A DNA stretch of 37,941 nt. It comes from Vulcanimicrobiota bacterium. GTDB lineage: Bacteria > Vulcanimicrobiota > Vulcanimicrobiia > Vulcanimicrobiales > Vulcanimicrobiaceae. The notes beneath the pieces were generated by a model. It did not search any database, was not told where the DNA came from, and worked only from the letters and a program-made list of their open reading frames with translations. A program made the translations under genes and the position numbers. This document shows, piece by piece, positions 23,012 through 37,180 of this stretch; position 1 is the stretch's first letter, and every line of letters starts with the position of its first letter. The stretch is from contig JAQBPK010000242.1 in NCBI GenBank assembly GCA_028287565.1, positions 1 through 37,941 on the forward strand, read 5' to 3'.

Positions 23012-26000
23012 TTAGCTGCAGCCGCTCGTCGTGCCGCAGCTGTCGCACTTCAGGCACGTGCCGTTGCGCACGAGCGTGAACTGGCCGCATTGCGTGCACG
23101 CGTCGCCGCTGTAGCCTTTGGCGATCGCTTCGCGGGCTTTCGCGGCGACAATTTGGCCTTTCACCACGGTTCCCGCGGCCGTTGGTGCTGCGGCCACCGC
23201 GCCGACCGGTTCCGAGACGCGCGTCACGACCGCCGTCGCCGACGGGGAGCCGGCTTTCGGTGCGATTGCCGTTGGCGCGAGGTAGTGGACTTCACCGCTG
23301 TCTTCTTCGCCGACGTACTCCGGTTCCGGGCCCATCGCGTCTACGGCTTGTGACGGCTGCACCTGGGCGAGGTCGTAGCGGCCGAGATAGCTCACGGCGA
23401 GCTCGCGGAAGATGTAGTCGAGGATCGACGTCGCCATCTTGATGTTCGCGTGGCCGACAACCGGGCCGTTCGGCTCGAAGCGTGTGAACGTGAACGCGTC
23501 CACGTATTCTTCGAGGGGAACGCCGTGCTGCAGGCCCAGCGACACCGCGATCGCGAAGTTGTTCATCAGGCTGCGGAAGGCCGCGCCTTCCTTGTGCATG
23601 TCGATGAAGATCTCGCCGAGCGACTTGTCGTCGTACTCGCCGGTGCGCAGGTAGACTTTGTGTCCGCCTACGACCGCTTTCTGCGTGTAGCCGCCGCGGC
23701 GGTCCGGCATCCGACGGCGCTTGGCGATGTAGCGGTAGACGAGGCGTTCCGCGATGCGGACCGGGCCTTCGTATGCAACGGTCGGCAGCTCGTCTTCCTC
23801 GGGACCGCCGACGTCATAGCTCGCCGCAAGCGGCTGCGAGAGCTTCGAGCCGTCGCGGTAGAGCGCGACCGCCTTGACCATCTTTTCCCACGAGTAGCGG
23901 TACGCTTCTTTGACGTCCGCGATCGTCGCCGTCTGCGGGAGATTGATCGTCTTGCTGATCGCTCCCGACACGAAAGGCTGCGCGGCGGCCATCATGTCGA
24001 CGTGCGCGAGCGGGCGGATGAACCGCGCGCCGTGTTTGCCGCATGGCGTCGCGCAGTCGAACACCGGGAGATGCTCTTCCTTCAGGAACGGCGCGCCTTC
24101 GAGCGTCATGCGCCCGCAGATCACGTCCGACGCTTCTTCGATCTGCGCCGGCGTGAAGCCGAGCGTGTCCTGCAGAATCGAGTGGTTCCAGTCGTTGAGC
24201 TGCGCGTCGGTCATGCCGAGCTTCTCGCGGCAGAAGTCTTCGCCGAGCACGTGCTTGTTGAATACGAAGCCGATCTCGAACGCGCCGAGCAACTGCGACT
24301 CGATCTTCGCGACGGCCTCGTCGTCAAAACCCTTAGCCTTGAGCGTTGCCTTGTTGATGTGCGGCGTGCCTTCGAGCGTGTTCGTTCCCTTGGCGAACGT
24401 CTCGATTGCGGCAATTTGCTCGTTGTTGTAACCCAGACGCCGCAGCGCCGGCTCGACCGACTGGTTGACGATCTTGAAGTACCCGCCGCCGGCGAGCTTC
24501 TTGAACTTGACCAGCGCGAAGTCCGGCTCGATGCCGGTTGTATCGCAATCCATCACGAGGCCGATCGTGTTGTGCGAGATGAAGCCGTTCGCGATGTACG
24601 TGACGTTCGCGGGAACTGACAGGTCGTAGGTCAGCTGCTCTCCGCCGTCCTCGTTGGTCGCGACGCTGTCGTAGTAGAACTCGAGCGCGGAGGCAATTCG
24701 CGGATGCAGGGTGCGGTCGAGCAGCGCCGTTGCCGTCGCTCGGCTCACCGCGCCGTCATGGCGATACCGATAGAGCTGCGTGCGCGCATAGAGATCGCTG
24801 CTTGTCGGCACGAGGTCGCGAACCAGCGCGTCCGGCAAGAATATCTGGTCGCCCTTGGTTCCCTGCCAAGAATCGCTCGCCTTGACCGCATCATGCTTGC
24901 GCGCCCCGATGAACCCGATACGCTCGGAGAACGACGCGGCGTATGCAGCGTGTTTAACCCGAAGGACGTAGCAATCGCTCTGGCCCCAGCCCGTTGTGTC
25001 GATCTTGGTGCTGGTCGGGATGCCGACCGCCAGCAGCAGCGTCTTGACGTCATCGGAGAACGTGCGGTTGACGGTGGACCAGCAAGCAGCACCATTCGTC
25101 ACGGTGCCGTCCGCCTCGAAGACGCCGCGGATGAATGCGGCATATACGGCGCGATCGTTCGTTGCCAAGATCGAGTCCGGAATACGCGGTACGTAACCCT
25201 TGCCGCGATGGTCGTCCGACGGCGAAAGCTTCGCGAAACCGCACGCTTCCCACCAAAGCGTCAGCGACACGGAGTTAGCGGCGAGCTCGATGTAGCCGTC
25301 CTTCCGAGTCGCGATCGGTTGGATCCCGAATAGCGAGCGGATGGAATCGCTGAGGTGCGCCAGCACGTCGTCGTCTTGTGCGGCGACGCAGAAACGCAGG
25401 CCCTTCGCGTGCAGGGAGCCGTCACCCATGAAGTAGCCGACCAGCTCCGCGAGCTCCGGCGTGACCGTACGCGGAACGCGCGTTGTGTAATCGGCGGTCC
25501 AGTACTCTTCCCCGAGCGGCGGAAGACTGACGACCTGAGGGTCGCCGGCGAGCGCGTCCATCGACAACGCGACGACGTCTTCCGACGTGACGTCCGCGAA
25601 GCGCTTCCAGCGAAGATCGCCCGTTTCGGCGTCGACGACCTTGATGCGATGGGTGGGTGTGCCTTGGATGACATAGCCGCTTGCAGTCGTGATGCGGCGC
25701 GTCTGTTCGATCCCGTTGATGAAGAACTTCGTGGCGCGCTGAACACCGTCATCCGTCAGTACGCCGAAGTCGGCGTCCTGCCACTTCGGGCCGTCGAGGT
25801 TGCCGAGACGGTTGAGCCGCATGAAGCCGCGGTCCGTCGCGATGAGCGAATTACCCACGAGGCAGCCGGTTGGAGCGATGCACGTGACTTGTGCATTGCG
25901 ATAGCCCGCGACCTCACCGATCGCCAGTGCGTTGTCCCACATCTGTCGTGCGAGCGCCCACGTCTCTTGGGTGAAAAGCGTCGGGGCGTGCGTCACCGGC

Positions 26001-29000
26001 GTGATGGTGAGCTCTTCGTAGTCTGTTGGTGCCGCGGCATACGCAGCGCGCCGATGGTTGCGCAGCACGCGGCCCATGTGCTCGGCGTTGCGGTCGTAGC
26101 TCGGGAACGGTCCCAGCTCCCGCGCCATCTCGGCCGATGTCTTGTACGCGACGCCCGTCATGAGCGCCGACACCGCGGCGCACCAGCCCAGACCTTCTTC
26201 CGAATCATAGGGAAGTCCGAGGCGCATAAGCATCGTGCCGAGGTTCGCATAACCGAGACCGAGCGTGCGGAAGTCGTACGACTTCTGCGCGATCACGCGG
26301 CTCGGGAACTGCGCCATCATGACGCTGATCTCGAGCGTGAACGTCCAGATCCGGCACGCTTCGGCATAGCGCCGCGCGTCGAAATGCCCGGCTTCGTCCA
26401 TGAACTTGACGAGGTTGAGCGACGCGAGATTGCAGTTGTGCGCGATCATGCCCTCGGCGATCACGGTGTGCGTGACCGGTTCGGTGATGTCATACACGGT
26501 CGCCTCACCGTCGGGGACGATCGACATGATCTTGGGCGCGCGCGGGTTCTTCAGCGCACCGGCAAAAGGCTGCGCCAGGATCTCACGAGCCTCGGCGTCC
26601 TTTTGCGTCGAGCACGGGAAGCCGACCAAGCTGAGGAACTTGCGCGCCTGCTGGTTGTACATCCGCAGCTGCCCCTGTGGGTTCTTGCGCCCTTCGGGAT
26701 GCGTCCATCCTTGACGCGACGTGATTCCCAGGTCGGACAGCAGCAGCTGGACCGAGCGCAGAAGCGTGGGAGAGGAAGACGCGAGCATCACGTTCTTCTC
26801 AGTTGCGCACGCTTCGCGACGGATCGAGCCGTCAGCGGAGAAGAGGCCCTGAAGATACGCGATCTTCAGATCGTTCGCGACGCCATGAATCGCCGTCGGA
26901 ACGTTCTTCGCCGTCGCTGTGCCCTGCGAAAAGCCGTAACGGTCGACAAGAAGCGAGATCAACGACGTTTGGGAAGTGCTGCTCTGCATCACGTCGTTAC
27001 GCTGCGTCGAGATGCGTGACTGCCGCGTCGCCGGTGGGAACACACCAGTTGCGTGGCCTTCGGCGATCGTTTTGAGCGCGTTGAGCTCGGCGGTCATAGC
27101 TTCCGCGGTCTCGCCTTCGGTCGGGCCGAAGACCAGCGCGGCGGTGTCTTTGTTGAGGACGCCGTCGCCCGTGAGCCAGCCGAGCATCTGCCAGCGCTTC
27201 ACCTCGAGCGGGTCTGACGAGAACGAGACTGCGTCTCCGCTCTCGCGGATGGCGACACGGTCCTTCCCGGCCTGGAGCGTGTCGAGCCGCTTCCAATCGC
27301 CGTCCGACGTGAGGAATTTGTGATCGCCAGTCGTGCGTACGACGCGGCCATCCTTGAGCGTCATGCGGAACACCTGACGCGTGCCGACCTTCGTCACGAA
27401 GGCGCGGCGATACGCCGTCATTCGGCGATCGTCGTTTTCACCGTACACGTCGGTGGTGATCATCACCCGCTCGCCGGCCTCTTGCGACGCGAAGAGATCT
27501 TCGACGGTCCGCAGCCCGTGCGGCGTGCTAATCCGCGTCTCCGGCGCGAAGCAAGCCGTATCGTCGAGGAAGAGGTACTCTGAGCAATTATGTACGACGA
27601 GACCGTTTGCGACGAAGTGCGATGTGTCAGGCTCGGTGAGATCGAACACGGGCTCGATCCCATCGTAGCGGATCAATGCGACTTCATCAGATAGCTGATC
27701 GCGATACGTCCCGACCGATGAGTTCATCGCCGCCAGCGCGGCAGCTTTCGGCGATTCTTGATCGAAGCCGATTTCTTGCTCGAACAGGGCGCGCGATGAA
27801 CGCGTGATCCGAAGCGAGTGCATCTCGCGTACAGGATACGGCGCTTGTCCGCCGCGACCGTCGGGCAGCATGGCAGAGGTGACGCCGGCACGGCGTTCCC
27901 GATAGATCTTCGATTTGACGCCGAACGAAAGCAGAAGGAGCTGAACCTGCTGGATCAGTTCAAGCGACGATGAGTCGAGACCGACATATTGCGACTTGTC
28001 GCCACTGTTCGAGACACAACCGTCGGCGGTGAAGAGTCCGCGCAGCAGCGCCGCAGCGGAAAGACGGTCGAGCTCATTTACGGCTGGACGAAGCCGCTTT
28101 GCGTGGCTGCCTTCGTCCAGAACCGCAAACTCTTCGAAACGTTCGACGATGGATGCCGCGTTCGACGTTACGCGAGCGGTCATCTGAGGAACATGCACCG
28201 CTACACGGCGGGCGGTGCGACCGTCGGCGGCGTCGCGCTTGAGCGCGTTGATAGCAGAGGCAGCACGCTCGACGATGGGTGCCTCCTGGGGTGCCATCGT
28301 GATCGTGAGATACCGCGTGCCGTTCTGGTCACTGCTGACGCAGCCGTCGCCCACGGCGAGTCCGATGGATTCGGCGAGCGCCAAGTCGATGGAGCGGCTA
28401 CCGAAACCGGCCGAGCCGAGCATGACGCGCTCGCCCATGATCAAGTCGTTGACCGCGACATCGCCGCGCTCTTCCGTGAGAATCTTGTGGTCGGCGGTAA
28501 CGCGGAGCTGGTATCCCGCCCGTGTGCGCAGCGTATAGACGGGCTTTGTCCCGGTCGGGAAGATTCGGTTGACGAAGTGCGGTTTTCCGTCGGAACCGAT
28601 GACGAACGCGGCTTTGCCGACCATCTCATCGATCCGTCGCAAACCGTCTGCCGTAGCGATGAGCGCATCGCCGGTTACGCAGGGGTTACTTGCGTTGATC
28701 TTGCCGTCGCTCGGGCACGTGTGCCATTCGTTGATCGTCGTGTCGTACTGCACGCCGGGGTCCGCGCACTGCCACGCGGCCAGCGCGATCTTTTCCCACA
28801 GATCCGCGGCCGGGACGCACTTGGGTTTCGGGTTACCGTCTTTGCGGCGCGGGACGAGGTCCCACGTCTGGCCGGCGTCGAGGCGCGCGAAGAAATCATT
28901 CGGGACGCGAACGGAGTTGTTCGAGTTCTGTCCCGAGACCGTTGCGTACGCCTTTGAATCCCAGTTCGTATCGTACGTCTCGATCGTGAGCTCTTTGTAG

Positions 29001-30580
29001 CCTTGCTTCGCGTAGTCGAGCGCGTACTGGATATTGGCTTGGGGGATACCCGCGCCGAGCGCGGCGCGAATTGACGCCTTCAGACGCGGGTTAAGCGCCG
29101 GGTCGAGACGCGCGGATTCCGGCAGCGTCTCGTCGTTCGCCGCTTTGAGGATCGCGTTGAGGTGCTTTTCGCACGTGATCGAGCCGGTGACGAGGTCGGA
29201 GACTTTCTGCTCCTCCGTCACCTTCCATGTGATGAACTCTTCGATATCGGGATGATCGAGATCCAGCACGACCATCTTGGCGGCACGCCGCGTGGTGCCG
29301 CCGGATTTGATTGCGCCTGCAGCGCGATCGCCGACTTTGAGGAACGACATCAACCCGGACGACGTACCGCCACCGGAGAGCTTCTCGCCCTCACCGCGAA
29401 TCGATGAGAAATTCGACCCCGTCCCCGAGCCGTACTTGAAGATGCGCGCCTCACGAACCCAAAGGTCCATGATCCCGCCTTCATTCACCAGATCGTCGCT
29501 CACACTCTGGATAAAGCAGTTGTGAACGACCACATTGTTCGTGAGGAAGGTATGGCTTTCGGTTTCAATATCATAGACATCGTCAACGCCGACGACTTGG
29601 ACACTGGCAACAGCAACGTCCGTCGTACCGACGGGCTGGTGCTTCGGCGGCGCCTCGAGCGTCTGCGTGCCGTGATACGCTTGTACGACGGCAGCCCGAT
29701 CGATGAATGATGACGTGAAGTCAACGCGTTCGACGATGTGCGAATCCGTTGTGATGTCCCGAACCGCTACCCATCGGTATGGATGCGTCGGAGCTTCGCG
29801 GGCGAGAACAAGGTGATCGTCCGTGGCTTCGAACGACTTGCCATTGGCCAGCTGCACACGCGAGACCAGTTTGCGTCCATTGTGCTTCACTGCCACGACG
29901 CGCGTCGTTCCGGCGATGTCGTAAACCGGAAGACCGATAAGCGAATCTTCGACGATTTTGCCGATCGCTATCGGTCCGTCGGGCGTTGAGACGAGGGCGC
30001 TATACGGAAGACACGCGTGCGGAGCCGGCCGCTCGTACGCAGACGTCGATTCCGCGAGTTCCCCCGTCTTCTCATTGACGTAGTAGTGACCCTGGGCCGG
30101 GCCAGAGATCCCGTACGCCCAATGCAGCCCCGTATTGAACCATTGAGGCGAATTTGCGGCAGCGATCTGGCGCGCCAGCATCGCGCACATCTCGTCGTAA
30201 TACGCGCGTGCTTCGAACTCGCTGTCGAAGTAGCTGTTCTTGAAGCCCCAGTACGTCCAGCAGCCGGCCAGGCGGTTGAAGACTTGGCGTGCGTCCGTCT
30301 CGCCGATGAACTTCGCGTCGTCCGCCGGCTCGGAGCGCCACAGCCACTCCGGCACGCCCTCCTCGGCCACGCGGACCGTCTTGTCGGGCACGCCGGCCCG
30401 GCGGAAGTACTTCTGGGCGAGGATGTCGGTCGCGACCTGGCTCCAGCCGGTCGGGATGGCGACGTCCTTGGCCTCGAAAACGACCTTGCCGTCGGGGTTG
30501 GCGATCCGCGACGTGCGCGGCTCGAAGCTGATTCCGGCGTACGGGTCGCCGGGGGCGGAATAGGTGCGCGCGAACTTCAT
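23012..30580 (-). CDS. nrdJ: adenosylcobalamin-dependent (class II) ribonucleotide reductase precursor with four inteins
   Basis: One open frame of 2522 codons. Removal of four inteins leaves an enzyme of 1187 residues, the normal size of long NrdJ proteins, which reduces ribonucleotides to deoxyribonucleotides with a B12-derived thiyl radical. Extein segments are 1-189, 355-633, 999-1009, 1383-1572 and 2005-2522. Catalytic residues by family alignment are the redox cysteine Cys355 (CFIQS), Asn632 and the thiyl Cys999 with Glu1001 in N-P-C-S-E, and the second redox cysteine Cys1383 (CNLASLNL). The phosphate-binding loop is APTG/TIGL. The C-terminal tail carries a CxxC...CxxC ribbon ([15 protein letters not shown]) for re-reduction. 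No ATP-cone is evident. The ATG has AGAGGA about 12 bases upstream. It is transcribed alone, from the promoter at 30727-30755. Confidence 0.96.
24569..25864 (-). mobile_element. intein 4 of NrdJ with LAGLIDADG endonuclease, 432 residues, Thr at +1
   Basis: Precursor residues 1573-2004, splitting APTG from [15 protein letters not shown], the substrate phosphate-binding loop. It starts [13 protein letters not shown]; block B is [13 protein letters not shown]. Endonuclease blocks are [11 protein letters not shown] (about intein residues 141-151) and [12 protein letters not shown] (about 244-255). It ends [21 protein letters not shown]. The +1 nucleophile is Thr2005, unlike the cysteines used by the other three. 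Confidence 0.95.
26435..27553 (-). mobile_element. intein 3 of NrdJ with LAGLIDADG endonuclease, 373 residues
   Basis: Precursor residues 1010-1382, only 11 residues after intein 2. It starts [13 protein letters not shown]; block B is [11 protein letters not shown]. Endonuclease blocks are [11 protein letters not shown] (about intein residues 123-133) and [12 protein letters not shown] (about 233-244), each with its Asp. It ends [21 protein letters not shown]. The +1 residue is Cys1383, the second redox cysteine. Confidence 0.95.
27587..28681 (-). mobile_element. intein 2 of NrdJ with LAGLIDADG endonuclease, 365 residues
   Basis: Precursor residues 634-998, inserted between P and C of the N-P-C-S-E thiyl-radical motif. 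It starts [13 protein letters not shown]; block B is [12 protein letters not shown]. Two LAGLIDADG blocks follow: [11 protein letters not shown] (about intein residues 106-116) and [13 protein letters not shown] (about 212-224), both with the catalytic Asp. It ends [21 protein letters not shown], and the +1 residue is the catalytic Cys999. Splicing and homing residues all appear intact. Confidence 0.95.
29519..30013 (-). mobile_element. intein 1 of NrdJ: mini-intein, 165 residues
   Basis: Precursor residues 190-354, between PAPHA and CFIQS. It begins [13 protein letters not shown] (Cys1 nucleophile) and has block [12 protein letters not shown] (TxxH). It ends [20 protein letters not shown], with His-Asn before the +1 Cys. 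Length and absence of any LAGLIDADG motif show a splicing-only mini-intein without homing endonuclease. The +1 residue is the redox-active Cys of the reductase N-terminal region. Confidence 0.95.
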
Positions 30581-30717: not shown

Positions 30718-30765
30718 GTACTAGATATTGTACCCCCTGACCGGTTGCGACACAAGATGTTCTGG
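30718..30765. promoter_or_regulatory. tandem NrdR-like boxes
   Basis: Box 1 (30718-30733) has the core CTAGATATTG and box 2 (30750-30765) the core CAAGATGTTC, compared with the NrdR consensus core CWATATATWG (9 and 7 of 10 matches by my count). They are separated by 16 bases, start to start 32 bp or three helical turns, as in known NrdR operators. They overlap the nrdJ -10 and -35, the usual repressor arrangement. They may also affect the divergent YqeG gene. No nrdR gene is in the window. Confidence 0.6.
30727..30755 (-). promoter_or_regulatory. sigma70-like promoter of nrdJ
   Basis: On the minus strand: TTGTGT (30750-30755), 17-base spacer, TACAAT (30727-30732). The predicted transcription start is near 30720, giving a leader of about 140 bases. 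No cobalamin-riboswitch core was recognised in this leader. The two NrdR-like boxes cover both hexamers. Confidence 0.6.
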
Positions 30766-30877
30766 ATACCTTGTGCATCCCGCGTGGACGAGCGCAATTT
30801 CCGGTGGACGGCGGCAAGCGGCCCGGTGGAGCGCTTGCGAGCGGGGTGAGCGAGCTGTGGACGGAACCGGGGATAGC

Positions 30878-31360
30878 GTGGAGAGGTTCCGAGCCGATCA
30901 TCACGCCGACACGCTGACCGACGTCTCGCTCGACCTGCTAGCCAGCTCCGGCGTGCGTGGGATCGTCGTGGACCTCGACAACACCGTCTGCGCCTACCAT
31001 GAGCCGGAGCTCGCACCGGGCGTTGCCGAGTGGGTCGCGGCGGCGCGCGACCGCGGCTTCGCGCTGGTGCTGGTGTCGAACAACTTCAGCGAGCGCGTCG
31101 CATCGATCGGCGCGAAGCTGGGCATCCCCGTCGTGCCGAACGCGCTCAAGCCGCTGCCGTTCGCGTTCCTGCGCGCGCTGAAGCTGCTCGGCACGCCGCG
31201 CGCCGCTACGATCGTCATCGGGGATCAGCTCTTCACCGACGTGCTCGGCGGCAAGCTCGTCGGCCTGCGCACGCTGCTCACGAAGCCACTGGTCGAGAAA
31301 GATTTTCCGCTCACGCGCGTGCTGCGCTTCCTCGAGCGCACGATTGCTGGCCGCACGTAG
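30878..31360 (+). CDS. YqeG-family HAD phosphatase (IIIA type)
   Basis: A 160-residue HAD-superfamily phosphatase. Motif I is VVDLDNTVCAYH with the nucleophile Asp and general acid Asp in D-x-D-N-T. Motif II is in LVLVSNNFSERV, the motif III lysine in NALKPLPFAF and motif IV in VIGDQLFTDVLGGK. The following TLLTKPLVEKDFPLTRVLRFLER is the YqeG-family C-terminal end. The GTG at 30878 preceded by GGGGA is preferred; GTG at 30857 is an alternative. It is divergent from nrdJ and followed after one base by the haloacid-dehalogenase-like gene. Substrate unknown. Confidence 0.88.
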   Translation: MERFRADHHADTLTDVSLDLLASSGVRGIVVDLDNTVCAYHEPELAPGVAEWVAAARDRGFALVLVSNNFSERVASIGAKLGIPVVPNALKPLPFAFLRALKLLGTPRAATIVIGDQLFTDVLGGKLVGLRTLLTKPLVEKDFPLTRVLRFLERTIAGRT

Positions 31361-31361
31361 C

Positions 31362-32051
31362 ATGGCCGTCGCCGCGGTCGTTTTCGACCTGTACGGCACC
31401 ATCCTCACGATCGAGTCGATGCGCACGCACGTCGCCGCAGCCGGCATCGCAGACGCCGGCACGTTCGTCGCGAACTGGCGCCGCAAGCAGCTCGAATACG
31501 CGTTTCTGACGTCGATGGCGCACGCGTACCGCAATTTCGATGAGCTCACCGCGCTCGCGCTCGAGCACACGTGCACTCAGCACGGCGCCGCGCTCGACGC
31601 CGCCCGCCGCGCGGAGCTCGTCGAGGCGTGGCGCTCGATGCCTGCGTACGACGACGTCGCGCCGGCGCTGCGCGCGCTCGCGGCACGCGGCGTCCAGCTC
31701 GCCGTGCTGACAAACGGCACGCCGGTCTCCGCGAACGCCGCGCTCGAGCACGCCGGCGTGCGCGCGCTCCTTACTGACGTGCTCTCGGTCGAAGCGGTGC
31801 GCGCGTACAAGCCCGATCCGCGCGTCTACGCGCTCGCGACCGAACGCTTCGCATGCGCTCCGCGCGACATCATCTTCGTCTCGTCCAACGCCTGGGACGC
31901 CTGGGGCGCGTCGCACTACGGCTTCCGTGTCGCCTGGTGCAACCGCGCCGGAAGCGCGCCGGAGCCGCTCGTCCCACCGCCGGAGACGACGCTGGCCGGC
32001 CTGCACGAGCTCGATGCGTGGGTACGTTCTGGCGTATGGAAACCGGGATGA
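31362..32051 (+). CDS. L-2-haloacid dehalogenase-like HAD enzyme (type II)
   Basis: A 229-residue HAD protein with the residue set of L-2-haloacid dehalogenases. The nucleophile is Asp9 in VFDLYGT, the halide/carboxylate-binding Arg is in WRRKQLEY, and LTNGTP matches the S/T-N motif. Lys is in YKPDPRVYALA, and SSNAWDAWGA supplies Ser, Asn and Asp. The family hydrolyses (S)-2-haloalkanoates with inversion, though some members act on other substrates. The ATG at 31362 is one base after the YqeG stop, and the stop overlaps the next start (ATGA), so this is a transcription unit. A TTG 18 bases upstream would overlap YqeG. Confidence 0.9.
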   Translation: MAVAAVVFDLYGTILTIESMRTHVAAAGIADAGTFVANWRRKQLEYAFLTSMAHAYRNFDELTALALEHTCTQHGAALDAARRAELVEAWRSMPAYDDVAPALRALAARGVQLAVLTNGTPVSANAALEHAGVRALLTDVLSVEAVRAYKPDPRVYALATERFACAPRDIIFVSSNAWDAWGASHYGFRVAWCNRAGSAPEPLVPPPETTLAGLHELDAWVRSGVWKPG

Positions 32052-32329
32052 CGAACTTGGGCAGCGGTGGGGAGGCGAAGGCGTCGCCTGCGGATCGCGA
32101 GGACACCAACCCGATCGGCGACGCGGATGACGTGGACGTCGATCAGACCGACCGCGGCGGGACGATGGACAGCGCGCTCGCCGCGAACGAAGATCCCTCG
32201 CTGCCTGCCGGCAACGACGACGGGACCGGGACGTCGCTGCCGCGGATCGGCCAAGGCGAGACGGCGGCGTACGGCGAGACGATCGAGAACGCGCCTGCAC
32301 CTACGGCGGGCGAGGGCTCGTCCGCGTAA
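32048..32329 (+). CDS. acidic, probably disordered small protein (93 aa)
   Basis: A 93-residue protein without hydrophobic core: MTNLGSGGEAKASPADRED, then repeated Asp/Gly/Thr-rich segments (DADDVDVDQTDRGG, GNDDGTGTSLP) and PTAGEGSSA at the end. It is translationally linked to the dehalogenase by an ATGA overlap; an ATG 12 bases upstream is also possible. Composition suggests a hydrophilic or desiccation-type protein, but that is only inference. Confidence 0.6.
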   Translation: MTNLGSGGEAKASPADREDTNPIGDADDVDVDQTDRGGTMDSALAANEDPSLPAGNDDGTGTSLPRIGQGETAAYGETIENAPAPTAGEGSSA

Positions 32330-32401
32330 CCGCTCGCTCGGCGTAGCGCGCGCACGGCCGGGTACGAATCCGTGCACGCACTCGACCTGTGAGGTGACCG
32401 C

Positions 32402-32653
32402 ATGACCGACGATCGCACGAACGCGGGCGGCCAAGCCGCGACCGGCGAGCCTGCGCTCACGCAGAAAAACTCCGCGACGGTTCGCGGCGAGGAGATTCTG
32501 GCGGACAGCGGTACGGCGGAGGACCTGAGCGGGGAGACGACCACGCGCACCAAGACCGGCGCCATGCCGCCGTCCTACGGCGCCGCGGGCGGCACGACCG
32601 ACGCCTATGAAGAGAGCGCCGGCGAAGCGGACTCCCATGGCTCAGGGAGCTAG
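32402..32653 (+). CDS. second disordered hydrophilic small protein (83 aa)
   Basis: An 83-residue protein rich in Gly, Thr, Glu, Ala and Ser, with no predicted fold: MTDDRTNAGGQAATGEP, VRGEEILADSGTAEDLSG, PPSYGAAGGTTDAYEESAG. GAGGTGA upstream gives a fair ribosome-binding site. Similar in kind to the preceding 93-residue protein and possibly a diverged copy. It lies 7 bases before the DUF2231 start. Confidence 0.6.
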   Translation: MTDDRTNAGGQAATGEPALTQKNSATVRGEEILADSGTAEDLSGETTTRTKTGAMPPSYGAAGGTTDAYEESAGEADSHGSGS

Positions 32654-32660
32654 CGACGCG

Positions 32661-33236
32661 ATGACGACCAACGCGCCGGTTCGCCCCGACTTGCACCACA
32701 CGCACGCATCACCGGAATCCGAGCTGCAACGGATCAAAGAGCCCGCGACGCCGCTCGCCGGGCCGTACGGGCATCCGTTTCATCCGATCGCCGTGACGAT
32801 CCCGATCGGCGCGTGGGCAGCCAGCCTGCTGTTCGATCTCGCATCGCTGCGCAGCGACGAGCCGCGCGTGTTCGCGCGCGGCTCCGCCGAGCTGCTGAAG
32901 ACGGGGCTGGCGGGCGGCGCCGTCGCGTCGTTCCTCGGCTTTCTCGACTATCTGAAGATTCCGAAGAACAGCAAAGCCGGCGTTACCGCAACGACGCACC
33001 TCGCGCTCAACGTCACGACGATGGGCCTGTATCTGCTCAACCTCACGCAGCGCGAGAAGCGGCTGCACGCGGACGCGTCGCGCAATGACGCCGTGTCGCA
33101 GAACGAGATCGGGCTCTCGCTACTCGCGCTGACGCTGCTGGGCGCGTCCGGCTGGTTGGGCGGAATGCTCGCGTACCATTTCGGCGTTCGCGTCGCCGAC
33201 GAGCGCACGCAAGCTGAGGGCCTGCACCGCGTGTAG
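32661..33236 (+). CDS. DUF2231 membrane protein
   Basis: A 191-residue membrane protein. After a polar N-terminus, GPYGHPFHPIAVTIPIGAWAAS contains the H-P-x-H-P motif of DUF2231, and four hydrophobic segments follow (SLLFDLASL, TGLAGGAVASFLGFLDYL, HLALNVTTMGLYLLNL, LSLLALTLLGASGWLGGMLAYHFG). DUF2231 proteins may bind haem or metal through the histidines, as related families do; function is open. ATG 32661 is chosen; ATG 32637 would add eight residues and overlap the preceding gene. Confidence 0.87.
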   Translation: MTTNAPVRPDLHHTHASPESELQRIKEPATPLAGPYGHPFHPIAVTIPIGAWAASLLFDLASLRSDEPRVFARGSAELLKTGLAGGAVASFLGFLDYLKIPKNSKAGVTATTHLALNVTTMGLYLLNLTQREKRLHADASRNDAVSQNEIGLSLLALTLLGASGWLGGMLAYHFGVRVADERTQAEGLHRV

Positions 33237-33272
33237 CGAGGAGCATCACCGCGGCGCGGCGGACCATGCGCC

Positions 33273-34448
33273 GTGCCACGTCGCAACGACCTCCCGCTGC
33301 TGATCGCCGGCGGCGGAATCGGCGGCCTCGCCGCCGCGCTCGCGGTCGCGCAGACCGGCCGCACCGTCCACGTGCTGGAGAAAGCCGCACAGTTCGGCGA
33401 GATCGGCGCCGGTCTGCAGCTAGCGCCGAACGCGTCGCACGTGCTGGCGCGGCTGGGCGTGCTCGATGCGATCGCGCAGTTTGCCGTGTACCCGCGGCGT
33501 CTGATGTGGCGCGACGCGCGCAGCGGCGAGCGCGTCACCGCGCTGGATCTGGGCGAGAAGTTCCGCGCGCGCTACGGCCACCCGTATGTGGTCATGCACC
33601 GCAGCGATCTGCTCGACGTGCTGCTCGCCGCGGCACGGGCCGATGCGCGCATCGTGCTGGAGCCGTCGCGCCATGTCCTCGACGTCGAAGAGCACGGCGA
33701 CCGCGTGCGCGCGTTGTGCGCGGACGGTTCGTCGTACGACGGATTTGCCGCGGTCGCTGCGGACGGCTTGTGGTCGCGGCTGCGCAAGCTCGTCCACGAC
33801 GACGGCGAGCCGGTCGCCGCGCGCTACGTCGCGTACCGTGGAACGATTCCGGTCGCCGAGCTGTGGGAAGGCGCCGGTCTGGAAGACGTTACGCTGTGGA
33901 CCGCGCCGGGACTGCACTTCGTGCAGTATCCGATCCGCGGCGGGCAGCTCTTCAACCAAGTCGCGGTGTTCACCAGCGCGCGGTACCATCCGGACAACGA
34001 GGACTGGGCAAAACCGGACGAGCTCGACGCGCGCTTCGCCGTCGGCTGCGACGCCGTGCGGGCCGGCATCGCGCGGATCGGCCGCGACCGGTACTGGACG
34101 ATGTACGACCGCGAGCCGATCGCGCAGTGGAGCCGCGGACGGCTCGTGCTGCTCGGGGACGCCGCGCATCCGATGCTGCAGTACATGGCACAGGGCGCTT
34201 GCCAAGCGCTCGAAGACGGCGTCGTGCTGGCTGACGCGCTCGCCGCGCACGACGACCCCGCGCACGCCTTCACCGCCTATCGCGACCGGCGCTCTCTGCG
34301 AACCGCGCGCGTGCAGTACAGCGCGCGGCTGTTCGGCGAGATCTGGCACGCTGGCGACGTCGGCGCGACGCTGCGCGACACGATGCTCGCCGCACGTCCG
34401 GACGACGACTTCTCCCACAGCGACTGGCTGTACGGCTGGCGTCCTTGA
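33273..34448 (+). CDS. FAD-dependent monooxygenase, 3-hydroxybenzoate 6-hydroxylase/salicylate hydroxylase-like
   Basis: A 391-residue group A flavoprotein hydroxylase, NAD(P)H- and O2-dependent on aromatic substrates. The FAD ADP-binding motif is LLIAGGGIGGLAAALAVA with the glutamate in VLEKAAQFGEIGAGLQLAPNA. The DG-like segment is VAADGLWSRLR, and the flavin ribityl-binding motif is VLLGDAAHPMLQYMAQGACQALEDG. The L-Q-Y-x-A-x-G-A-x-x-A-x-E-D run is characteristic of 3-hydroxybenzoate 6-hydroxylases. Start GTG at 33273. No ring-cleavage genes are in the window, so the pathway is unclear. Confidence 0.9.
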   Translation: MPRRNDLPLLIAGGGIGGLAAALAVAQTGRTVHVLEKAAQFGEIGAGLQLAPNASHVLARLGVLDAIAQFAVYPRRLMWRDARSGERVTALDLGEKFRARYGHPYVVMHRSDLLDVLLAAARADARIVLEPSRHVLDVEEHGDRVRALCADGSSYDGFAAVAADGLWSRLRKLVHDDGEPVAARYVAYRGTIPVAELWEGAGLEDVTLWTAPGLHFVQYPIRGGQLFNQVAVFTSARYHPDNEDWAKPDELDARFAVGCDAVRAGIARIGRDRYWTMYDREPIAQWSRGRLVLLGDAAHPMLQYMAQGACQALEDGVVLADALAAHDDPAHAFTAYRDRRSLRTARVQYSARLFGEIWHAGDVGATLRDTMLAARPDDDFSHSDWLYGWRP

Positions 34449-34513
34449 TCGGCCGCCTGCGACCGAAGCGCGCGGAGAACCCCGCGGCGACCGCGTATCG
34501 TTAGCCGGTGACC

Positions 34514-37180
34514 ATGACCGCCCGGCCCGAGCTTCCGAAGACCTACGACCCCGCCGAGGTCGAGCCGCGGCTTTATGAGGCCTGGCTGAAGGCGCGCGTC
34601 TTCCACGAGGACCCCGATCCGGCTCGGCCGCCGTTCATCATCTCCATGCCGCCGCCGAACATCACCGGGCGCGCGCACCTCGGTCATGCCTCCACGTACA
34701 CGACGATGGACCTGGTCACGCGCTACCACCGCATGCTCGGCGAGAACGCGGACTGGATTCCCGGCCAAGACCACGCCGCCATCGCGACCGAGAGCGTGCT
34801 CGTGCGCGAGCTCGCGAAGGAAGGCCGAACGCGCAACGAGCTGGGCCGCGAGAAGTTCATCGAGATCGCGTGGGCGTGGCGCGAGCAGTACGGCGGCGAG
34901 ATCAACGAGGCGTTCCGGCGGCTCGGCTTCGGACCGGACTGGGACCGCGAGCGCTTCACGCTGGACCCGGCTCTGTCGGCGGCGGTCATCAAGGTGTTCG
35001 TCGACCTCTACGACGACGGGTTGATCTACCGCGGCACGCGCCTCGTGTACTGGGATCCGAAGGCGCAGTCGACGCTGTCCGACGCCGAAGTCGAGGACGA
35101 AGAGCGCGACACGTTCCTGTGGCACCTTCGCTATCGCGGCGAGGACGGCGGTGACGGGCTCGTCATCGCGACGACGCGGCCCGAGACGTATCTCGCCGAC
35201 GTCGCGGTCGCGGTGCATCCCGGCGACGAGCGCTACCGGCATCTCATCGGCACGAACGTCGTGCTGCCGATCGTCGACCGCGCGATCCCGGTGATCGCGG
35301 ACGACGCGGTGCTGACCGAGTTCGGTACCGGCGCGGTGAAGGTGACGCCGGCGCACGACCAGACCGACTACGAGATCGGCCAGCGCCACGGCTTGCCGAT
35401 GCCGACCGTGATCGACTTCGACGCGCGCATCGCCGCGCCGCTATGGCGCTACGACGAAACGCCCGAGCGCCGCGCGCCGATCGACGCGCAGGCGCCGAAG
35501 ATGGCGCCGTACGCGGGGCTCGACCGCTTCGACGCCCGCAAGCGCATCGTCGCGGATCTGCGCGCGCTCGGTGCGCTCGTCGAGGAGCGGCCGTACCACA
35601 CGCAGCTGCCGGTGAGCTCGCGTTCCGGCGAGGTGATCGAGCCGCTGCTGTCGCTGCAGTGGTTCGTGCGCATGAAGCCGCTGGCGAAGCCCGCGCTCGC
35701 GGCGTACCGCGGCGGCGCGCCGCATTTCGTGCCGGAGCGCTTCGGGCGCACGTACGCCGCCGGTTTGGAGAACATCCGCGACTGGAACATCTCGCGGCAG
35801 ATTTGGTGGGGCCATCAGCTGCCGGTGTGGTACACGCCGAACGACGACGTGATCGTCGCGCACGACGAAGACGAGGCGAAGCGCATCGCGCGCGAGCGCT
35901 TCGGCATAGACGACGTGCGGCGCGATCCCGACACGCTCGACACGTGGTTCAGCTCGGGGCTGTGGCCGTTCTCGATCCTGGGCTGGCCGGAGAAGACGCC
36001 CGAGCTCGACCACTGGTATCCCAACCAGGTGATGATCACCAGCCGCGACATCATCTTTCTGTGGGTGTCGCGCATGGTGATGCTGGGGCAGCGGTTCGCC
36101 GGCGCGATGCCGTTCCGGACGGTGTTCGTCACGCCGCTGGTGTTCGACGTGCACGGGCGCAAGATGTCGAAATCGCTCGGCAACGCGATCGACCCGATGG
36201 ACGATCTCGTGCCGCGGTACGGCGCGGACGGCACGCGCTTCGGCATCCTGCGCCAGATGCGCCTGGAGTCGCAGGAGCTGCGTTTCGATGAGCGCTATTG
36301 CGATGAGGCCAAACGTTTCGCGACCAAGCTGTGGAACGCGCTGCGCTACACCTGCGCGCTGCCCGAAGAGATCCCGGGCGCAAACGTGCTGCCGCCGCGC
36401 GAGAAGCTCACCGTCGCCGACAAGTGGATTCTCACCGAGCTGCGCGCGTGCGTGGAAGCGGTGACGCGCGCGTACGACCGCTTCGAGCTCGGGGTCGCCG
36501 CCGACACGCTCTTGCAGTTCGGCTGGTACACGTTCTGCGACTGGTACGTCGAGGCGACGAAAGCCCCCGGCCAGCACGCCACGCGCGCGGCGGTCCTGTC
36601 GTTCGTGCTCAACGCGTTCGTGCGCGCGATGCATCCGATCGCGCCGTTCGTCACCGAGGAGATCTGGCAGACGCTGCCGCACGACGGCGCGACGATCGTC
36701 ACGGCGTCGTGGCCCGACGTGGCGGAGATTCCGTCGTTTCCGGACGAAGCCGCCGTGTTCCGCAGCGTCATCGAGAAAGTCGAGCAGCTGCGCAACGCGC
36801 GCTCCGAGTGGGCGATTCAGCCGAAAGACTGGATGCGCGTGGAGATCCCCGCGGCGCTGCAATCCGAGCGCGACGTGGTCGAAGCGATCGCGACGCTGGC
36901 GCGCGCCGAGATCGCGACGTACGACGGCGGCGACGGGAGCGTGCGCGACCGCATCCTCGCGGTACGAGGCGTCGCGGACACCGCCAAGCTGCGCGAGCGC
37001 TACGCGCGCGAGGAGAAGCGGCTCGAAGCCGAGGTCGCGCGGTCGGAGAAGAAGCTCGCGAACGAAAGTTTCGTCGCCAAGGCGTCGCCGGACGTCGTCG
37101 CAGCCGAGCGCGCGAAGCTGGACGAGTACCGGCGTGAGCTCGCGCGCGTTCGCACCGCTCTGGACGCATTGCCCGCCTGA
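34514..37180 (+). CDS. valS: valyl-tRNA synthetase
   Basis: An 888-residue class Ia synthetase charging tRNA-Val. The HIGH motif is NITGRAHLGHAS, so it reads HLGH at about residues 55-58. The CP1 editing domain contains VIATTRPETYLADVAVAVHP and GTGAVKVTPAHDQTDYEIG. WFSSGLWPFSILGWPE and the KMSKS loop GRKMSKSLGNAIDP (about residues 550-554) complete the catalytic core. The anticodon-binding domain has FCDWYVEATK and HPIAPFVTEEIWQ. A C-terminal coiled-coil (EEKRLEAEVARSEKKLANESFVAKA) is present as in ValRS. GTG at 34508 is an alternative start two codons earlier. Confidence 0.97.
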   Translation: MTARPELPKTYDPAEVEPRLYEAWLKARVFHEDPDPARPPFIISMPPPNITGRAHLGHASTYTTMDLVTRYHRMLGENADWIPGQDHAAIATESVLVRELAKEGRTRNELGREKFIEIAWAWREQYGGEINEAFRRLGFGPDWDRERFTLDPALSAAVIKVFVDLYDDGLIYRGTRLVYWDPKAQSTLSDAEVEDEERDTFLWHLRYRGEDGGDGLVIATTRPETYLADVAVAVHPGDERYRHLIGTNVVLPIVDRAIPVIADDAVLTEFGTGAVKVTPAHDQTDYEIGQRHGLPMPTVIDFDARIAAPLWRYDETPERRAPIDAQAPKMAPYAGLDRFDARKRIVADLRALGALVEERPYHTQLPVSSRSGEVIEPLLSLQWFVRMKPLAKPALAAYRGGAPHFVPERFGRTYAAGLENIRDWNISRQIWWGHQLPVWYTPNDDVIVAHDEDEAKRIARERFGIDDVRRDPDTLDTWFSSGLWPFSILGWPEKTPELDHWYPNQVMITSRDIIFLWVSRMVMLGQRFAGAMPFRTVFVTPLVFDVHGRKMSKSLGNAIDPMDDLVPRYGADGTRFGILRQMRLESQELRFDERYCDEAKRFATKLWNALRYTCALPEEIPGANVLPPREKLTVADKWILTELRACVEAVTRAYDRFELGVAADTLLQFGWYTFCDWYVEATKAPGQHATRAAVLSFVLNAFVRAMHPIAPFVTEEIWQTLPHDGATIVTASWPDVAEIPSFPDEAAVFRSVIEKVEQLRNARSEWAIQPKDWMRVEIPAALQSERDVVEAIATLARAEIATYDGGDGSVRDRILAVRGVADTAKLRERYAREEKRLEAEVARSEKKLANESFVAKASPDVVAAERAKLDEYRRELARVRTALDALPA

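Follow-up and report, generated by a model that had tools for sequence, protein, structure and literature searches.

How can one bacterial gene carry four inteins that together exceed the length of the enzyme it encodes, and where do these inteins come from? The question is raised by a ribonucleotide reductase gene in a 37,941-nucleotide stretch of DNA from a Vulcanimicrobiota bacterium (contig JAQBPK010000242.1 of assembly GCA_028287565.1), which is referred to below, at its full length, as the window. With high confidence, and from sequence analysis throughout, we propose that the gene encodes a single precursor of a class II reductase (NrdJ) with four cis-splicing inteins, and that these are independent, site-specific mobile elements belonging to a pool in Eremiobacterota that uses seven sites of the enzyme.

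The precursor and its parts

The minus strand of the window holds, at positions 23012..30580, a single open frame of 2522 codons plus a stop, with no internal stop. When the frame is cut at its splice motifs, the inteins are 165, 365, 373 and 432 amino acids long (1335 in total), and the exteins of 189, 279, 11, 190 and 518 amino acids add up to a mature enzyme of 1187. The original prediction had given the same frame, the same four intein lengths and the same enzyme length, and every number was reproduced to the residue. The computed masses are 129.7 kDa for the spliced product and 17.9, 39.3, 40.8 and 47.2 kDa for inteins 1 to 4. The parts are as follows, with the basis of each assignment in brackets.

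23012..30580, minus strand: whole precursor, NrdJ with four inteins (open frame, NrdJ profile, splice-motif boundaries)
30014..30580, minus strand: extein 1, mature residues 1-189 (splice-motif boundaries)
29519..30013, minus strand: intein 1, 165 aa, mini-intein without endonuclease, before C190 (splice motifs, same-site alignment, Pfam 30.3 bits)
28682..29518, minus strand: extein 2, mature residues 190-468 (splice-motif boundaries)
27587..28681, minus strand: intein 2, 365 aa, LAGLIDADG motifs GDG and ADG intact, before C469 (motifs, Pfam)
27554..27586, minus strand: extein 3, mature residues 469-479, an 11-residue spacer that separates intein 2 from intein 3 (splice-motif boundaries)
26435..27553, minus strand: intein 3, 373 aa, LAGLIDADG motifs intact, before C480 (motifs, Pfam)
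25865..26434, minus strand: extein 4, mature residues 480-669 (splice-motif boundaries)
24569..25864, minus strand: intein 4, 432 aa, LAGLIDADG motifs intact, before T670 (motifs, Pfam)
23015..24568, minus strand: extein 5, mature residues 670-1187, with a cysteine-rich C-terminus (NrdJ profile, splice-motif boundaries)

The NCBIfam profile PRK07562 (vitamin B12-dependent reductase, NrdJ) matches the frame in four stretches with 1770.2 bits, above its cut-off of 1737. This bears out the earlier assignment to class II, and the enzyme is predicted to be a B12-dependent NrdJ.

Splicing and endonuclease motifs

Each of the four inteins begins with Cys1, and the block B motif TxxH reads TDDH, TADH, TGDH and TPTH in inteins 1 to 4. 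The C-terminal junctions are, in the same order, HN/C, HN/C, HN/C and HN/T, where the slash marks the splice point. The claim that Cys1, TxxH and the His-Asn ends are intact in all four could thus be read in each sequence. These residues are also kept in relatives: at the four sites occupied in the window (after mature residues 189, 468, 479 and 669), Cys1 and HN are present in 25/25, 26/26, 17/17 and 20/20 aligned inteins (88 in total), and at site 189 TxxH is likewise kept in all 25, intein 1 among them. A Pfam scan of the whole frame finds Intein_splicing in four stretches and LAGLIDADG_3 in three. When the inteins are scanned singly, inteins 2, 3 and 4 score 51.7, 42.5 and 36.7 bits for Intein_splicing (cut-off 35.8); each of them contains the endonuclease motifs GDG and ADG and matches PF14528 above its cut-off, and intein 1 has no endonuclease match. 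By their splice motifs, the four inserts are all inteins whose splice-site residues are intact.

Selection on the inteins was estimated in 12 pairs, each made up of a window intein and a same-site intein of the genus. The ratio of nonsynonymous to synonymous change (dN/dS) is 0.08-0.26, a rough estimate with synonymous sites near saturation in several pairs, and it argues that the frame is no chance read-through. The endonuclease part, within bounds set by us, shows the higher nonsynonymous difference in all 10 pairs that were so split.

In the class 1 intein route, an N-S shift at Cys1 is followed by transfer to the +1 Cys or Thr and by cyclisation of Asn. Each window intein is predicted to excise itself separately by this standard route, and excision of the four would leave the 1187-residue NrdJ. 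We infer that all four splice, and the endonucleases of inteins 2 to 4 are presumed to cut; with LAGLIDADG domains that hold both catalytic aspartates, these three inteins are probably still mobile or were so recently. Intein 1 is a mini-intein, its lineage having lost the endonuclease.

Position of the inteins at the active site

Residues C190, C469 and C480 of the mature enzyme align with C134, C322 and C333 of 1xje_A, a solved class II reductase, and the N-x-C-x-E motif, here NPCSE, is aligned with NPCGE of the same chain. The match ranges with the human chain 3hnc_A place C190 at 218 and C469 at 429, assuming no gaps upstream of them. The human enzyme has its thiyl-radical cysteine at C429 and its redox pair at C218-C444 (PMC5819950). 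C480, judged from its place in the fold family, would be the counterpart of human C444. Inteins 1, 2 and 3 directly precede C190, C469 and C480, so that each is predicted to take one of the three active-site cysteines as its +1 nucleophile. The +1 residue of intein 4 is T670, in the loop PTG/TIG.

All four of these +1 residues are identical in 79/79 complete frames of the phylum, and inteins are described as preferring conserved sites (PMC2814812). The chance of meeting three catalytic cysteines among four random conserved Cys, Ser or Thr positions is 0.0003, a value computed post hoc, after the pattern had been seen.

Inteins of NrdJ across the phylum

A contiguous 189-residue extein piece was used as the query of a phylum survey and found matches in 93/149 genomes. 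From these, 100 stretches were fetched, and the mature enzyme was aligned, with long inserts allowed, to 105 frames including that of the window. The 26 frames that did not cover all seven sites were dropped before counting, which leaves 79 complete frames; locus L243 (35% identity) was excluded as a paralogue, and the partial site-189 intein of genome G010 was left out of the counts.

The survey holds 107 inteins at seven sites, namely 25, 10, 26, 17, 20, 8 and 1 after residues 189, 221, 468, 479, 669, 875 and 1005, respectively. At least one intein is present in 53/79 complete frames, with none in 26, one in 30, two in 13, three in 6 and four in 4. The frames with four are those of the window, G069, G087 and G043, and none of the 79 has five. 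Frames with at least four inteins number 4 as compared with about 1 under independent shuffling (P 0.012, a statistic that ignores relatedness). The 11-residue spacer between inteins 2 and 3 is not peculiar to the window, as this pair of inteins also occurs in 4 other frames. In a control set of 142 genomes from the class of the Bradyrhizobium locus L062, 88 matched. Their open frames span 852-1364 residues, a length that leaves no room for several inteins; not all of these frames are complete, and the few longest may contain one mini-intein.

Intact and reduced elements are found together. At sites 189 and 468, full-length, shortened and mini inteins occur side by side; 7/25 inteins at site 189 are full length with both endonuclease motifs, and at site 479 both motifs are present in 17/17. 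Endonuclease status was scored for the 98 inteins of five sites (189, 221, 468, 479 and 669): 63 have both acidic motifs, damaged forms number 12 and mini-inteins 23. The endonuclease is intact in 38/63 inteins of multi-intein genes and in 25/35 of single-intein genes.

Some frames of the survey deserve separate mention. The contig of locus L146 (G010) starts inside its site-189 intein, so that this gene has at least three inteins (189, 468, 479), with site 669 empty. The reductase lies in two frames at L237, L182, L179 and L236, which may reflect assembly errors, frameshifts or truly split genes; the gap of L182 spans site 189. At L225 (G043), the 294-residue insert at site 1005, a site occupied once in the survey, ends in TGN, not HN; the +1 Cys of this site is also present in 11 empty frames. 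At site 221, extein residue 222 is Thr in 9/9 occupied frames, while the 70 empty ones have Ser (44), Thr (25) or Val (1): either the intein enters Thr alleles only, or it carries the codon along.

Turnover, transfer and co-occurrence

Changes in occupancy were counted on a FastTree tree of the exteins and compared with shuffled labels. The counts at sites 221, 468, 479 and 875 are 8, 18, 12 and 7, and the shuffled values are 8.6, 20.1, 13.1 and 7.7, so that at four of the six sites so examined the distribution over the tree is close to random. Even within the genus of the window, intein sets differ between species. For the site-221 intein, G036 differs from G029 and G105, which carry a different genus code, far less in the intein than in the exteins at synonymous sites (pS 0.15-0.19 as against 0.63), and this points to a recent transfer between genera. 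Taken together, the mixture of intact, damaged and mini forms and the scattered occupancy are the pattern expected of a homing cycle in which inteins invade, decay and are lost.

The closest relative of each window intein is a same-site intein of another species (62-81% identity), whereas its best matches at other sites reach 22-32% (alignments of at least 80 residues). An origin of the four by internal duplication was rejected on this difference, which argues for four separate arrivals or inheritances.

Sites 468 and 479 lie 33 bp apart, and they are occupied together in 4 of the 79 frames (4.1 expected), on which ground interference between them was rejected. Tree-aware pairs lean the opposite way (0.7 same vs 3.6 opposite, median p 0.375), so weak exclusion between the two sites may exist. 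The co-occurrence of inteins at 189 and 221 (Fisher p 0.033, one of 21 tests) was set aside, its median p on the tree being 1. Low synonymous diversity near the insertion sites was also looked for, and no sign of it was found, with flank codon identity at the 0th-64th percentile.

Probable reliance of the host on NrdJ

The nearest record whose title names a phylum is from Candidatus Eremiobacterota (73%, L036), and two other near records stand at 74% and 78%; by this measure, the host groups with Candidatus Eremiobacterota. In 11/11 genomes of the genus, one of which is a single contig and 99% complete, PF02867 (the reductase barrel family) has no match outside the NrdJ gene, and NrdD is found in 0/11. 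Subject to the incompleteness of the window's own genome, NrdJ looks like the only reductase of the cell, and we infer that the cell depends on it. The original prediction held that an active enzyme requires all four splicing reactions to succeed, and this is supported by the three sites directly before active-site cysteines and by the finding of no further reductase large chain in the genus. Most probably the inteins persist as selfish elements, because at a conserved, essential site an imprecise loss is as little tolerated as a failure to splice.

Matches of PF14890 in the window's genome are confined to the reductase frame, while in seven more genomes of the genus one or more different frames also match. 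It is important to note that these searches are not fully sensitive, having missed window intein 4 and the site-669 intein of G007. The other frames of the genus with intein-splicing matches, 735-1418 aa long, are G005:C16:4213-4692, G004:C173:3424-4095, G001:C4:1033484-1033987, G003:C425, G002:C44, G002:C35, G006:C1:2689542-2690774 and G008:C7:438976-440205.

Points against the proposal and alternative explanations

Several observations weigh against four mobile, splicing inteins. Scanned singly, intein 1 reaches 30.3 bits for Intein_splicing, below the cut-off of 35.8, unlike the site-189 inteins of G009 and G002, which exceed it. The window is one contig of a draft assembly of 4.8 Mb in 399 contigs, 83.7% complete. 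Sites 189 and 669 show 12 and 11 changes vs 17.1 and 14.8 under shuffling (1 and 5 of 1000 shuffles are as low), so that some inheritance is evident there and occupancy partly follows the tree. At site 669, moreover, inteins are more alike than exteins in 0/189 pairs; because occupancy partly tracks the tree and the inteins are never more alike than the exteins, intein 4 may be largely inherited or may have moved over short distances only. Finally, the tree is unrooted, and the change counts cannot separate gain from loss.

Among the alternatives, the one that survives best, although we regard it as unlikely, is that the inteins act as a conditional switch (redox, metal or stress) which restrains the sole reductase until DNA synthesis is permitted. 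Three of the inteins have an active-site cysteine of the reductase itself as their +1 nucleophile, so that cysteine oxidation could in principle stop splicing and catalysis at once, and in the mycobacterial DnaB intein a disulfide of the catalytic cysteine causes reversible oxidative inhibition (PMC6195587). In the form of a redox gate, to which we give similarly little credence, the active-site cysteines would splice first and catalyse later, and the phylum would re-acquire inteins since delayed activation is sometimes useful; oxidation of any one cysteine would then leave the enzyme both unspliced and inactive. But the inteins are freely missing in relatives, in that 26/79 frames have none and the sets vary among species of one genus, a pattern that would not be expected if the switch were needed. 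A regulatory role via the shared cysteines is possible but unsupported.

It is still less probable that the inserts are ordinary domain insertions or dead, non-splicing remnants of inteins and that dNTPs are supplied by another reductase. The incomplete genome and the low score of intein 1 are what speak for such a view; against it stand the complete splice residues of all four inserts, with Cys1 and HN invariant in the 88 aligned inteins, the position of three inserts directly before active-site cysteines, intein dN/dS well below 1, and the restriction of PF02867 to the NrdJ gene together with the absence of NrdD in all 11 genomes, the single-contig one included. That the four-intein frame is an assembly chimera, as its 399-contig assembly and the two-frame NrdJ of some relatives might suggest, is the least probable of all, given that the frame is open over its whole length, other genomes hold same-site relatives of each intein, a second assembly of the genus (G010) has inteins at 468 and 479 and the end of one at 189, and the phylum holds three more four-intein frames.

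Gene neighbourhood and searches for related elements

Among the genes upstream of the reductase (window 30728-37180) are those for a HAD hydrolase, a DUF2231 membrane protein and a valyl-tRNA synthetase, an ordinary chromosomal setting. Long frames run antisense to the gene at 25355-27019 (+), 23450-24619 (+) and 27989-28957 (+). Four antisense frames and one small frame overlapping the gene start gave no match in a Pfam scan, and the long ones are probably a by-product of high G+C. No RNA family was found in an Rfam search of the window.

Scans of viral contigs with inteins 3 and 4 gave a single weak match per intein, at 31-33% over some 50 residues, and a plasmid search with intein 3 as the sole query gave one match, at 27%. 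A phage search with the whole precursor returned 209 records, none with 80% coverage; among the matches listed, a class II reductase that spans 48% of the precursor ranks first. In solved structures, a search with intein 4 gave weak Mxe GyrA matches only. A library of open-licence papers yielded none combining 'intein' and 'Eremiobacterota'.

Comparison with known systems

The reductase of Trichodesmium also has four inteins in one bacterial gene (PMC1635734), and the title of the 2003 Trichodesmium paper stands in the reference list of PMC4649490. Unlike that gene, the window frame is continuous, the window has no Rfam RNA family and the host is from Eremiobacterota. The earlier view that four inteins in one polypeptide lie at the high end is right, but the window is not unique in this respect, as Trichodesmium has four (PMC1635734) and so do three other NrdJ frames of the phylum. 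Likewise, the alleles rir1-b, -g, -k, -l and -m are listed in PMC4071816, one Chloroflexi sequence appearing under three of them, so several inteins per bacterial reductase are already a known kind. The intein of BnrdE in Bacillus phage SPbeta lies directly before the CSE motif, i.e., at the same site as window intein 2, and this site is therefore already known to take an intein. BnrdE differs in being of another reductase class, in its annotation, which gives an intron as well as a putative intein as interruptions, and in that its intein ends in GN and the window inteins in HN.

A further parallel is found in archaea. In the MCM and PolB genes of archaea, haloarchaea included, a single replication gene holds several inteins at conserved sites, which are occupied sporadically, and the endonuclease status is mixed (PMC10643990), as in NrdJ. 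Two close MCM inteins are reported there to co-occur more than expected and yet to interfere in homing (PMC10643990); the closest pair of the window gene, in contrast, co-occurs as expected.

A four-intein bacterial reductase is not a first, and a lone one would repeat a case known since 2003; what is new is the phylum setting. Within one protein, three inteins appear to use the reductase's three active-site cysteines as splicing nucleophiles. With 79 complete alleles, seven sites, single sites that take both mini and full-length inteins, and near-random occupancy at most sites, the phylum set offers bacterial data on which to test the spread and decay of inteins and their tolerance of close neighbours, matters treated in archaea by PMC10643990.

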